From Tunturiibacter empetritectus (GTDB lineage Bacteria; Acidobacteriota; Terriglobia; Terriglobales; Acidobacteriaceae), in the NCBI RefSeq assembly GCF_014201375.1, contig NZ_JACHDZ010000004.1:310001-374000 (forward strand): a stretch of DNA of 64,000 nucleotides. The letters run 5' to 3'. The position numbers were made by a program, and so were the translations under genes. How positions within the stretch are numbered: the first letter of the stretch is position 1; every line of letters begins with the position of its first letter. Below, piece by piece: positions 13,155 to 42,479 of this stretch. The notes below the pieces were generated by a model. It was not told where the DNA came from, did not search any database, and was given only the letters and a program-made list of their open reading frames with translations.

Positions 13155-14582
13155 ATGTCATTCGTTCCGACGGCTACCGCCGTATTGAATTATTGGGTTC
13201 GTATTCTGGCTGCCCTTGAGAAGAAGATCAACCGCCAGTCTTACGAGACATGGCTCAAGCCGACACGGTTCTCACACCTCGAGGGCAAAAAGCTCTTCGT
13301 GCGAATTCCCTCCACCGACTTCCAGCACATCGGCGACCGCTACGCCGACCTCATCCAGGAAGCGATCGACAACCTCGGACTCGACGTCGAATCGGTAGCC
13401 TTCACCACGCCCGAGCAGGACCCGCGCGCACCCAAGGTGAGGGAGGACGGCGGCTTCGCTCCCGTCCCCAGCCACAGCCAGAGCGCACCCCGCCAGCGCC
13501 TCGGCGCCTCGTCCAACTCCGTCTCAGGGCCGACGCCCGAGCAGGCTCGATTCGACTGGAGTGCAGCCTCCCAGCTCAACCCGCGCTACCAGTTCGACGC
13601 CTTCGTCATCGGCAGCGGCAACCAGTTCGCCACAGCAGCAGCCCAGGCCGTAGCCGAACGGCCCTCCAAGGCCTACAACCCGCTCTTCCTCTACGGCGGC
13701 GTCGGCATGGGCAAGACCCACCTGATGCATGCCATCGGGCATGACGTAAAGCGCAGGCAGCCGCACGCCTCCATCAGCTACGTCAGCGGCGAAAAGTTTA
13801 CCAACGAGATGATCAACTCGGTCCGCTACGACAAGATGACCGGCTTCCGCGACAAGTTCCGCAACGTCGACGTCTTGTTGATCGACGACATCCAGTTTCT
13901 AGCCGGCAAGGAGCGCACACAGGAGGAGTTCTTCCACACCTTCAACACGCTCCACGAAAGCATGAAGCAGATCGTCATTGCCAGCGACCGCCCTCCCAAA
14001 GAACTTGCCGACTTTGAAGATCGTCTGCGGTCGCGCTTCGAGTGGGGTTTGATCGCCGACATTCAGCCGCCCGATCTCGAAACAAAGGTCGCGATCCTGC
14101 AGAAGAAGGCAGAGAGCGAACAGACGCAGCTTCCTACTGACGTAGCGATGTTTATCGCCTCGAACGTCCGGACCAACGTGCGTGAGCTTGAGGGCGCGCT
14201 GGTACGGCTGATCGCCTGGTGCAGCATGCATGGCGTGGAGATCACGCTTGCTGTAACCCAGCAGTGCCTGAAGCAGTTCATCGACACCCAGGTTCGCAAG
14301 ATCACGATTGAGACCATTCAGCGCACGGTGGCAGAGCAGTTTGGGATGCGGGTTGCGGAGTTGAAGCAGAAGAATAACTCCCGCCAGATTGTGGTGCCGC
14401 GGCAGATTGCGATGTTCCTGGCCAAGCAGTTGACGGAGGCTTCCCTGCCGGAGATTGGGCGGCAGTTTGGCGGCAAGCACCATACGACCGTGATGCACTC
14501 TATCTCGAAGATCGACGAGCAGCGCCGCGCCGATAAGGACTTGAATCGGACGATCAACAAGCTGATGGAGACGCTGAGCTAA
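13155..14582 (+). CDS. dnaA: Chromosomal replication initiator protein DnaA
   Basis: A 475-residue initiator ATPase. Domain I (about 15-90) is followed by a Pro/Ser/Gln-rich linker. The AAA+ domain has Walker A GGVGMGKTHL near residue 181 and Walker B LLIDDIQF near 241. The C-terminal HTH carries the DnaA signature around GGKHHTTVMHS. AAGGA lies 9 nt before the ATG. DnaA melts oriC and loads the replicative helicase. It is divergent from rpmH; dnaN is not adjacent but about 2.5 kb downstream. Confidence 0.97.
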   Translation: MSFVPTATAVLNYWVRILAALEKKINRQSYETWLKPTRFSHLEGKKLFVRIPSTDFQHIGDRYADLIQEAIDNLGLDVESVAFTTPEQDPRAPKVREDGGFAPVPSHSQSAPRQRLGASSNSVSGPTPEQARFDWSAASQLNPRYQFDAFVIGSGNQFATAAAQAVAERPSKAYNPLFLYGGVGMGKTHLMHAIGHDVKRRQPHASISYVSGEKFTNEMINSVRYDKMTGFRDKFRNVDVLLIDDIQFLAGKERTQEEFFHTFNTLHESMKQIVIASDRPPKELADFEDRLRSRFEWGLIADIQPPDLETKVAILQKKAESEQTQLPTDVAMFIASNVRTNVRELEGALVRLIAWCSMHGVEITLAVTQQCLKQFIDTQVRKITIETIQRTVAEQFGMRVAELKQKNNSRQIVVPRQIAMFLAKQLTEASLPEIGRQFGGKHHTTVMHSISKIDEQRRADKDLNRTINKLMETLS

Positions 14583-14600
14583 CCCCTGAAAAGAACAGGT

Positions 14601-14793
14601 GTCCTGCCGGACGGGCTCCCTGCGCGGGAGGCGGTCACTTCGTGACGCGTATACCGGCCCAGGCAGGATGATCTGCATCGGTCCTCCCGTTGGTCGGAAC
14701 AATCATCTCTCGCGACCAACGGGAGCGCCAACCGAAGGGGTATACCCATCACGAAGTGATCGCCCCGCGCGCAGCGGGACCGTCCGGCAGGAC
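14601..14793. repeat. Nested-palindrome dispersed repeat, copy A
   Basis: A 193-bp element just after dnaA. Its outer arms of about 55 bp (14601-14655 and 14739-14793) are inverted repeats of each other, differing at roughly one position in six, and begin and end GTCCTGCCGGACGG / CCGTCCGGCAGGAC. Inside is a perfect 13-bp stem, CTCCCGTTGGTCG (14684-14696) with CGACCAACGGGAG (14713-14725). Copy B is at 40535-40701 in the opposite orientation. It contains no coding region; it resembles a REP/REPIN- or MITE-like element. Its two ends are intact here, but I saw no target-site duplication. Confidence 0.8.
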
Positions 14794-14805
14794 AGAATCT
14801 CTCCC

Positions 14806-14979
14806 AAAAAATAAAGTTGAAAACCGTGGCGTATTTTTAGCAGCCCAAAAACACGCTGCTAACTCACCACGTTTACCACGCAAACCACCACGTTCTCACC
14901 ACCAAAACACCACACCAAAACACACCTATTTCCCCAAAAACCCCAATTAAAACCCCCATCCACCAGCGCCAGAAAAAAA
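14806..14979 (+). repeat. A/C-rich dispersed repeat, copy 1
   Basis: A strongly strand-asymmetric block (G-poor on the plus strand) beginning AAAATAAAGTTGAAA and ending near a run of seven A. It shares the order and wording of a second block at 48223-48415: ATTTTTAGC, ACCACGCAA/GCCACGCAA, CCACCAC, TTCTCACCA, AACACCACACC and AAACACxC, closing with CCAGAAAAAAA. The frames through it are not convincing as protein. It lies directly next to palindromic copy A and downstream of dnaA, in the convergent gap before the NTF2-like gene. Confidence 0.65.
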
Positions 14980-14980
14980 T

Positions 14981-15583
14981 CTACTTCGGAAGATACTTCG
15001 CAGGAATCGGATTAGCAGGAGACTCCGAATCCCAGAAGATGTTGACGACCCAATACCGGTCCCCATCCTTCAGCAACTGAAAACTATTGATCCCTCTAGT
15101 AAAAGGAGCAGGATCATCAGCATTATGGCGAGACTCATAAGCGCTCCAGATCTGAACAATATTGCCGAACTGCTCGATCTCATTGTGGATAGAGCGCTCA
15201 AAGAATCCATTCGCACTCATACGCCCCTGACTGCGAGCGATATAGCTATCAATCGTAAGAACCACCGCATCAGCATGGCCACTAGTAGGTGACATCACCG
15301 CGGGAATAAGGCGCGCATCCGGGATAAAGAGCGAGCGCATACGGTCCCAGTCACGCTGCTGTCCCTTAGGCCCGGAGATGACGCTGTAGACAGCGTTCAG
15401 GATTGCTTCAGGAGATTTGACGTCCTCGGGCTTGGCCTGAGGCCAGTCGCTTCGAGTTGCGATAGAGCCGATCAGCGTGGGAGGAGCTGATGGCTGCGGC
15501 GTTGCTGCGGTCTGCGCCTTCGCGGCGATGCTCGCTAGTGTGACGAGTAAGAAGATGGAGGCGATTCGGTTCGCTGGCTTCAC
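14981..15583 (-). CDS. Exported NTF2-like (SnoaL-type) protein
   Basis: A 200-residue protein with a signal peptide (about residues 1-23, cut after AKAQ) and a single NTF2-like domain. Features are the N-terminal helix with EAILNAVYSVIS, the W-D-x-M-x-x-L-F motif WDRMRSLFIPDA near residue 80, and a C-terminal DGDRYWVVNIFWDSES strand. Such domains serve as small-molecule pockets or isomerases. No catalytic residues or substrate can be named. It is convergent with dnaA and its 3' end abuts the A/C-rich repeat. Confidence 0.75.
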   Translation of the reverse strand: MKPANRIASIFLLVTLASIAAKAQTAATPQPSAPPTLIGSIATRSDWPQAKPEDVKSPEAILNAVYSVISGPKGQQRDWDRMRSLFIPDARLIPAVMSPTSGHADAVVLTIDSYIARSQGRMSANGFFERSIHNEIEQFGNIVQIWSAYESRHNADDPAPFTRGINSFQLLKDGDRYWVVNIFWDSESPANPIPAKYLPK

Positions 15584-40534: not shown

Positions 40535-40701
40535 CCCTGCGCGGGCGGCGGTCACTTGTATACCCCTTCGGTTGGCGCTCCCGCTGGTCGCGAGCCATCT
40601 TCCTTTCCGACCAACGGGAGGACCCAAGCGCATCACCCCACCAAGACAAGGTACACAAGTCACGAAGTGACCGCGGCCCGCGGGGCGTTTCCGTCCGGCA
40701 G
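40535..40701. repeat. Nested-palindrome dispersed repeat, copy B
   Basis: About 167 bp that match the reverse complement of copy A (14601-14793): GTATACCCCTTCGGTTGGCG, then CTCCCGCTGGTCG (40578-40590) pairing with CGACCAACGGGAG (40608-40620), GGAGGACC, and the right arm GTCACGAAGTGACCGC up to CCGTCCGGCA. The outer left arm is degraded (the tract before 40535 no longer pairs), and one internal segment is shorter. It sits just downstream of the beta-helix gene. No coding content. Confidence 0.78.
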
Positions 40702-40733
40702 TACCGGCAATTGGAGACCATGCGGCTCCCCCG

Positions 40734-42479
40734 CTACCGTCGCAGAATCTGAATCAGCTCGATGCTGAAAGAACCGCTGGCCGCACCCTGTTCCGGGTCT
40801 ACCCTCAGCTGCCTCAGGACACCGGACCACTTCGCCACCGAAGACAGATCCACATCATAGGTATGGAACCCCGCCGCCGCCGGATACAACCAGAAGTCGC
40901 TATGTTTTTCCTCGTTCCACCCAACATCCGCGTCAGTGATGAAATAGATCTGCCCAAAGCCTGCATTCGTTGCGTTCTTCATCCTGATGCGGACAAACGT
41001 TCCCGGCGTGATGGCAACTCCAAGGCGATCCGTAGAAAAAATGCATGGATCGATGTTATTGACGATTCCATTCAGCGAGCCGCCACTCACGCGCAACTGA
41101 CTTATCCCAGCTCCGTTCTGCCAGCCCACCGCGTTCCCATCGGAGTTGAACTTCCAGGACTGAAGAACCGTCGGCTCCGCCTCCGGCTTGCCGATATTGC
41201 TGTTCTGTTCCAGTTCAATCCCCGTGCAATTTCCGTCGCCTCCGAAGAACAGTGTGTTCGGCGCGTTAGCGTACTTGTTGTTGTAGATCTTGCCGGTCGG
41301 ACGATTCCCTTGCACCCAGTTGGCGACTTCGATCTGATTGTTTCCCAGCTTGCGTGCTGAATTATTGCTGAGAAACGTGCAGTTCCGAATGACGAAGTTA
41401 CGCGTAGTGGGATTCAGATAACCCGGCGTAGCGAGGATCTCAATAGCCGGTCCAGCATTGTTCTTAAAAGTGCAACCATCCACCATCACATCTTCGTTAT
41501 CGCACTCAAAGTCCAAACCCGTGTTATCCGGGCAGGCATTAAACGGCGTGTCGCTGATCGTAACGTTGTTCAGGGTCACGTCTTTCGAGAACATAATCTG
41601 CAACGCCGAGGTTCCCGTAGCGGCGTATCTTGCGCCTCGTTGAATCGTCGAATTCCGAACCGTGCACCGGGTCACGCTGGTAAGAAAGAGGCTGACGAAC
41701 GAGGTCCCATCAACTGTGTTGTCATGCAAATTCAGATGTTCCATATACACATCGGTAAACTTGTTCCTCGACGCATTCGTCCTATCGACGCAGTGATGAT
41801 TTCCCCAATCCAACGCGATCCCCGCGCCAGTGTTATAGACTTCAGTGTTGGTGATCTTAAGGTCAGAGAGCACACAGGTCTCGTTATTCGGTGTGTCTTC
41901 CACACCGGTAACTCCAATTCCATACGACCACGTCACTCGTCCGCGGTCCGCAGGATCCTCTATGTTCTTGAAGTCATGAGCCACAATGTCATCCAGATAG
42001 ACCGACTGGTTGTGATACGAGTGATCATAAAAAATCACGATTCCCGCGCCACCGTCGCATACCTCCAGGTTCGAAACCTTCAAGTAGGAAGAGTTATTCA
42101 ATCTGAGACATCGGTCCGTCGGCTTGCCATCGCGCTGAATCTTGGGTCTCGCTCCCTCGCTATACGCCGCCACTGTAATAAACTGCTGCGCGTTGCCGGC
42201 ACCATTAATCCTCAGCTCCTCCCGCCACACGCAGCCACGCTTCAGTAGAAGAGAATCACCAGGAGAAAAGGTGTGCTGATTGATCGGCGTGAAGTCCTTC
42301 CAGGGGGCTGTCGCTGATGTTCCGCTGTTCTGGTTGTTCCCGGCGGTGTCCACATAGTAAGTTTTTCCGGCCGCGGGGGAGAAGCCCCCAGCACTTGCGC
42401 GAAGAACGCCGGGGGAGAGCGTGAGTCCAGCCGCCGCCCGACCGGTCTCGTGGAGAAATCGTCTTCGACTTTGTCTCAT
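40734..42479 (-). CDS. Tat-exported right-handed beta-helix protein
   Basis: A 581-residue protein. RQSRRRFLHETG is a twin-arginine export signal. The N-terminal part (KTYYVDTAGNNQNSGTSATA) resembles DUF1565-type parallel beta-helix proteins, and Asn-rich coils of the helix run over about residues 60-400. A C-terminal jelly-roll-like domain (about 440-580, TPGTFVRIRMKNATNAGFGQ) resembles carbohydrate-binding modules. Such proteins bind or depolymerise polysaccharides. No catalytic residue set is identified, so lyase activity is not claimed. Divergent from the YncE-like gene. Confidence 0.8.
   Translation of the reverse strand: MRQSRRRFLHETGRAAAGLTLSPGVLRASAGGFSPAAGKTYYVDTAGNNQNSGTSATAPWKDFTPINQHTFSPGDSLLLKRGCVWREELRINGAGNAQQFITVAAYSEGARPKIQRDGKPTDRCLRLNNSSYLKVSNLEVCDGGAGIVIFYDHSYHNQSVYLDDIVAHDFKNIEDPADRGRVTWSYGIGVTGVEDTPNNETCVLSDLKITNTEVYNTGAGIALDWGNHHCVDRTNASRNKFTDVYMEHLNLHDNTVDGTSFVSLFLTSVTRCTVRNSTIQRGARYAATGTSALQIMFSKDVTLNNVTISDTPFNACPDNTGLDFECDNEDVMVDGCTFKNNAGPAIEILATPGYLNPTTRNFVIRNCTFLSNNSARKLGNNQIEVANWVQGNRPTGKIYNNKYANAPNTLFFGGDGNCTGIELEQNSNIGKPEAEPTVLQSWKFNSDGNAVGWQNGAGISQLRVSGGSLNGIVNNIDPCIFSTDRLGVAITPGTFVRIRMKNATNAGFGQIYFITDADVGWNEEKHSDFWLYPAAAGFHTYDVDLSSVAKWSGVLRQLRVDPEQGAASGSFSIELIQILRR

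Follow-up and report, generated by a model that had tools for sequence, protein, structure and literature searches.

Directly behind dnaA in the window (by which we mean the whole 64,000-nucleotide stretch of Tunturiibacter empetritectus DNA analysed here) lies a palindromic element of 193 bp, and a second copy of it is found some way downstream. The features discussed below are as follows:

13155–14582, plus strand: dnaA; 18 nt separate its stop codon from the element
14601–14793: the whole element, dnaA copy, 193 bp
14601–14612, plus strand: hairpin HP1 of the left arm, nearly invariant, with a 4-bp stem and a 4-nt loop; one end of the element
14615–14632, plus strand: hairpin HP2 of the left arm, variable stem with compensatory changes, loop TRCGC and a bulged base
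14634–14646, plus strand: hairpin HP3 of the left arm, 5-bp stem and triloop TTC
14681–14793: right portion, replaced; resembles paralogous copies (0.957 to the copy L037, 0.841 to its own ortholog in the relative G047)
14684–14725: central stem-loop, perfect 13-bp stem and 16-nt loop
14748–14760, minus strand: HP3 of the right arm, placed by mirroring the arm alignment
14762–14779, minus strand: HP2 of the right arm, of a stem type unlike that of the left arm in the same element
14782–14793, minus strand: HP1 of the right arm; the other end of the element
14981–15583, minus strand: ORF convergent to dnaA, 187 nt past the element
40535–40704, minus strand: second copy, decayed and inverted relative to the first, its left end without HP1

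The first-pass annotation of this locus had described inverted outer arms of about 55 bp enclosing a perfect 13-bp inner stem, and this description holds: the arms (14600–14655 and 14739–14794) are 56 nt long and 86% complementary, and the inner stem (14684–14696 and 14713–14725) pairs perfectly over its 13 bp. It was equally right about an opposite-oriented second copy with a degraded outer left arm. That copy aligns at 40537–40704 at 75.6% over query positions 1–174, and 29 nt separate its right end from the stop of a minus-strand gene (40734–42479). As a single strand the dnaA copy folds far beyond chance (z = −10.8 as RNA and −10.6 as DNA), and the minimum-energy fold of this copy alone is one long hairpin. 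A search for a terminator-like site at the dnaA copy found none, and no Rfam model matched at the gathering score over the whole window. On the 3′ side of the element, at 14794–14960, lie an A-rich stretch and a GTGGCGTATTTTTAGCAGC-type sequence, which are similar in three relatives (G047, G014 and G044).

Only two copies had been implied, whereas the genome count comes to very roughly 190. The terminal 16-mer, allowing up to two mismatches, occurs 306 times (163 forward, 143 reverse) in the 4.8-Mb genome versus 19 times (11 and 8) for its reversed control, and the 193-bp query finds at least 40 scored places among 227 candidates in the same genome. In 392,668 fetched bases, an element-centred sample chosen around copies, 176 ends form 59 paired elements and 58 unpaired ends, some of the latter being chance or palindromic self-matches and a few resembling coding sequence. 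At about 1.5 ends per element, the end count suggests, by extrapolation, that figure of very roughly 190 elements for the genome. The paired elements are mostly 177–179 or 191–194 bp long. Aligned copies share an architecture of arm, centre and inverted arm, in which each arm, instead of being one side of a long stem, is its own train of three small tandem hairpins. Across arms, HP1 (GTCC-TGCC-GGAC) hardly varies, and HP2 presents the loop TRCGC on several stem types. HP3 is either GTCAC-TTC-GTGAC or, in 19 of 131 classified arms, a second type (HP3b) with a GC stem and then five T as RNA polymerase would read it. In some arms HP2 and HP3 are separated by an extra hairpin module. A minimal 49-bp form (HP1, HP2, HP1) is found in the present genome (G000) at C5:66611–66659, and two orthologous sites of G047 have a short form like it.

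Across copies it is the local hairpins that are maintained, and not the long outer stem. In the covariation set of 80 distinct arms, drawn from 94 distinct arms in register, the local structure is paired in 95.7% of cells, versus 84.8% in shuffled and 34–45% in slid controls, and two-sided changes number 108 against an expectation of 24.2 (s.d. 3.9). Stems 2 and 3 (HP2 and HP3) vary with compensation, and RNAalifold recovers the same hairpins, including the bulged variable base in HP2. The two kinds of pairing were compared in the 48 of 59 paired elements with both arms in register: HP2 pairs were kept locally in 282 of 288 cases, versus 173 of 288 from arm to arm. Identical HP2 in both arms occurs in seven of the 48 elements, as against 2.9 by shuffling (42 of 2,000 shuffles reach seven). 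The earlier suggestion that the whole element could extrude as a cruciform or fold as RNA thus survives in part: at minimum energy the dnaA copy does fold into the long hairpin, but what is conserved across copies is the local hairpins.

By sequence matches, the family is confined to one genus of soil bacteria. With BLAST, 17 of 41 genomes match: the present one, 16 of the 24 others in the genus and none of the 16 outside it. A covariance model of the arm finds matches in 38 of 62 genomes of the genus and none in the other 24, and 13 genomes are element-rich, with at least 92–93 arms each. Within the same class but outside the genus, 10 of 179 genomes gave weak matches (one per genome, E = 1.5e-4 to 9.1e-3), which we read as chance; the best match inside the genus reaches about 1e-21. 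The plasmids, phages and viral contigs searched contained no match. A description of the element sequence may exist, but none was found in the literature searched, including the available parts of PMC3733652, PMC12306157, PMC2817692 and PMC3116915. In two low-copy genomes, G001 (L014) and G023 (L017), a full copy is present at the same site (about 1501–1690), directly behind the stop codon of one gene, terminase-like, and ahead of another, HipA-like; both names come from reading the translations and not from a search.

Elements are extragenic, are found mostly directly behind stop codons and avoid divergent gene pairs. With genes called by a simple home-made ORF/GC3 rule and not by annotation, the context of 93 out of 117 elements could be assigned: 48 are in tandem, 30 in convergent and nine in divergent spacers and six inside ORFs, with 106 tandem, 37 convergent and 38 divergent spacers as background. 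Of 112 ends, 60 face the 3′ end of a gene, 45 face a start and seven lie inside ORFs. A position 1–9 nt after the stop codon is taken by 35 of the 60 ends facing 3′ ends, versus one of 45 at the equivalent distance from a start. In tandem spacers, 14 of 24 elements are at most 9 nt from the stop, where uniform placement in the same spacers would give 2.9 (s.d. 1.4); a twenty-fifth element, overlapping a called gene, was left out. For convergent ends the same comparison gives 23 versus 15.4. The dnaA copy, 18 nt past its stop, is outside this peak. Both element ends show a weak flank preference, A-R-A-n-T-n-T beside GTCC. Start-facing ends show it just as strongly, so it is no trace of stop codons but belongs to the ends themselves or to the target. 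That no duplication flanks the element, as noted at first for two copies, was confirmed statistically: among 59 flank pairs, direct identity at 4, 6, 8 and 12 nt does not leave the range of the shuffles, and at 10 nt it is slightly high (reached by 75 of 2,000 shuffles). No signal of a palindromic target was seen at the insertion flanks, and empty sites come without clean joined flanks because of divergence in the surrounding intergenic sequence. A palindrome of type GGACAGCTTCTTAGAAGCTGTCC was considered as a pre-insertion site and rejected, the full palindrome having matched only around C1:680.8 kb. In the locus L061 (G000:C1:679649–681825), at about 1182–1380, two GGACAGCTTCTTAGAAGCTGTCC-type palindromes stand close together beside an element, possibly as an operator or another small repeat. 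A left arm with half a centre at L071:19650–19720 (G000:C1:73649) is found at the same place in five species; it lies upstream of the start of a small gene and is followed by a −10-like TTATAAT, possibly a case of reuse in a promoter region.

At close range the copies are inherited vertically. In close pairs of genomes (97–98.6% identical, three blocks), 20 elements were examined, of which 19 were placeable and all 19 were present in the partner; full elements are 0.979–1.000 identical, with no gain or loss in that sample. Element sites are also common to the present genome and G047, G014, G044 and G002. At the dnaA site itself, G047, G014 and G002 have an element, G044 has half of one, and G011 and G041 have none. 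At the divergence of about 8% that separates G000 from G047, sites are mostly common but contents are not. Among 60 HP2 pairs (20 arms) compared with G047, 37 are the same, 15 have changed on both sides and are still paired, none has changed on one side alone and eight are broken, several of them belonging to arms that carry the extra module. Another 10 arms were left out as absent, unplaced or not comparable. The comparison with G014 (45 HP2 pairs in 15 arms, 15 further arms having been dropped) gives 29 same, 12 two-sided, two one-sided and two broken. The core is inverted in place in one of seven full pairs with G047 (C1:202924; 0.91 inverted, 0.67 direct), and among six full pairs with G014 one is clearly inverted (0.80 versus 0.66) and one weakly. 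The left 80 nt of the dnaA copy match the G047 ortholog best (0.912, the best of 71 comparisons), whereas its right 113 nt match paralogs best, with the G047 ortholog ranking 18th; G047 and G014 agree with each other at 0.93 over this right part. Judged by these similarities, the dnaA copy is a chimera. Over about 8% divergence, then, hairpins have been exchanged, cores inverted and halves replaced in place.

We consider it probable that these copies constitute a family of composite extragenic elements, REP-like (BIME-like) and restricted to the genus, the modules of which are remodelled in place and which may act at mRNA 3′ ends. The best reading is thus of a new family without a known mobiliser that acts, if at all, on the ends of transcripts. 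An ancient and now slow spreading process would have seeded the sites. Exchange with other copies, together with hairpin-templated repair (template switching), would then remodel the elements, which would explain the chimeras, inversions and two-sided changes. Selection on the folded RNA or on single-stranded DNA, on the other hand, would explain the invariance of HP1 and the retention of elements after stop codons. We think that both operate; the data do not separate the two. At mRNA 3′ ends the hairpins may influence how transcripts decay or terminate or how ribosomes are released, by analogy with the REPs of Escherichia coli. According to the available part of PMC12306157, REPs near stop codons lower the translation of the upstream gene, and those within 15 nt of a stop codon stall ribosomes; on this analogy, a role in the behaviour of mRNA 3′ ends would be the most likely function. 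Counterweights to this explanation are the distance of 18 nt between the dnaA copy and its stop, the long hairpin into which this copy folds at minimum energy, the HP3b and terminator results given below, and the fact that template-switch correction can produce covariation without selection.

It is possible, though we lean against it, that the paired stems are not selected at all, and that template switching at quasi-palindromes copies changes across the hairpins and flips the centres of elements that are neutral relics. Such a process would provide one mechanism for both the one-step two-sided changes and the in-place core inversion, and covariation can arise from its correction without selection; moreover, the HP2 types form a small set, the commonest of which are one pair away from an all-C/all-G stem. 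Yet HP1 is nearly invariant in sequence, the elements remain close to stop codons, and they are kept at many common sites in relatives with flanks about 82–98% identical. Long-range arms, too, should have been corrected by the same process, and they differ.

A structured non-coding RNA or a bidirectional intrinsic terminator module would fit the position of elements after stop codons and between convergent genes, their strong folding and the T5 tract that follows HP3b. However, no Rfam family was matched, and HP3b, which occurs in just 19 of the classified arms, is found in eight of 76 stop-facing arms versus 11 of 55 start-facing ones, so that a terminator role of HP3b was discarded. This lack of enrichment, together with the lack of a terminator-like site at the dnaA copy, weakens a purely terminating role, and we regard the RNA or terminator reading as unlikely. 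We would give no better chance to a further, more speculative reading, in which transposase-independent repeats settle a few nt past stop codons and renew themselves where they are, at sites fixed for the life of the lineage. Modules would be exchanged among the roughly 190 copies, both sides of a stem would be rewritten together and centres would flip; if true, the family would behave as a distributed, self-correcting 3′-end cassette of the chromosome.

The first-pass annotation had likened the element to REP/REPIN and MITE families. The likeness stands as to the many extragenic, palindromic copies without flanking duplication, but not as to a RAYT helper or a target duplication. A REPIN mobilised by RAYT/TnpA_REP, a Y1 HUH transposase acting on single-stranded hairpins, would be consistent with the hairpin ends, the missing target duplication, the weak flank preference at both ends and the bulged HP2 stem, as well as with two Y1 matches at one locus of the present genome (C1:442300 and C1:443952, the second shorter). 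However, no element end lies within the 14 kb around this locus, the sole Y1 locus inspected for flanking ends, and the GTAG-tagged hairpin is not seen at the element ends. Y1/RAYT transposases do not track the family: four of the 13 element-rich genomes (G002, G014, G043 and G044) have no Y1 match, which rules out RAYT as a required helper, and element-free genomes have as many or more, at least one match being found in 17 of the 21 tested (24 element-free in all). G014 has no match, and its 97% relative G060 has one. An ancestral helper may have been lost, but mobilisation by RAYT is improbable. The Y1 locus itself (L063, G000:C1:436000–450000) contains, at about C1:442150–444600, the two Y1-type matches and a repeated sequence nearby, recognised from repeated translations, which is not the present element. 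An even smaller probability is given to a MITE, that is, an internal-deletion derivative of an IS with TIRs of about 16–55 bp, moved by its DDE transposase and now inactive. Conserved TIR-like ends, the two length classes and presence/absence differences between relatives speak for it; against it, there is no target duplication signal at 4–12 nt, no pair of ends 0.4–4 kb apart, as a parental autonomous element would have, was noticed in the 393 kb fetched and the exact ends listed, and the stems co-vary, which the TIRs of DDE elements need not do. A local duplication, finally, is ruled out by the copy number and the relatives in other genomes.

The usual explanation of REP/BIME-type repeats is copying by a RAYT, and BIMEs bind IHF, gyrase or Pol I. 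ERIC/RU and Correia (NEMIS) elements are extragenic imperfect palindromes of 100–200 bp, and Correia elements have TA duplications. The present element resembles the latter groups, as generally described, in being an extragenic imperfect palindrome of that size, and differs from them in sequence and in its hairpin-train anatomy, and from Correia elements in their TA duplications. With MITEs it shares terminal inverted repeats but no target site duplication. According to the available part of PMC3733652, TIRtrons with TIRYT transposases occur in Acidobacteria and some of their TIR families are repeated; the present family is likewise acidobacterial and repeated, yet its ends do not flank the Y1 gene in the own-genome locus checked. 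The same source, so far as available, defines CGTC-tagged REPs by the CGTC tag, an 8–9-bp stem starting with AT pairs and a CCA tail, and lists five phyla without Acidobacteria (PMC3733652). Inverted dimers and the lack of a dedicated transposase found are common to both, but the consensus HP1–HP3 show neither the 8–9-bp stem with leading AT nor the CCA tail of that published description. Compensatory changes are reported to be common in REPINs (PMC3116915, available part), and they are found here too, as are two inverted hairpin units around a variable centre. Unlike in REPINs, four of 13 rich genomes are without a Y1/RAYT gene found, the HP2 type usually differs between the arms of one element (41 of 48), and GTAG, the tag of RAYT REPs, is not seen beside HP1, HP2 or HP3 in the aligned arms. 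On the features compared, membership in the RAYT, CGTC and MITE families therefore fails. The closest resemblance is to BIME/REP of enterobacteria and pseudomonads, which likewise have many extragenic copies, hairpins in inverted pairs, mosaic modules and a position near stop codons (PMC12306157). The present elements are, in the same way, extragenic mosaics of inverted palindromic units with exchangeable modules, but they have three distinct hairpins per arm, an arm module of 54 nt versus a REP of 20–40 nt, a central stem-loop, an unrelated sequence and a range of one acidobacterial genus. They make up a large REP/BIME-like family that RAYT does not track and whose sites have stayed fixed across several percent of divergence, and comparison of orthologous sites shows directly that modules are exchanged, cores inverted and stems changed on both sides. 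Such a family offers a natural test bed for how hairpin repeats stay paired, by selection or by template switching, how they persist, and why they sit directly after stop codons.
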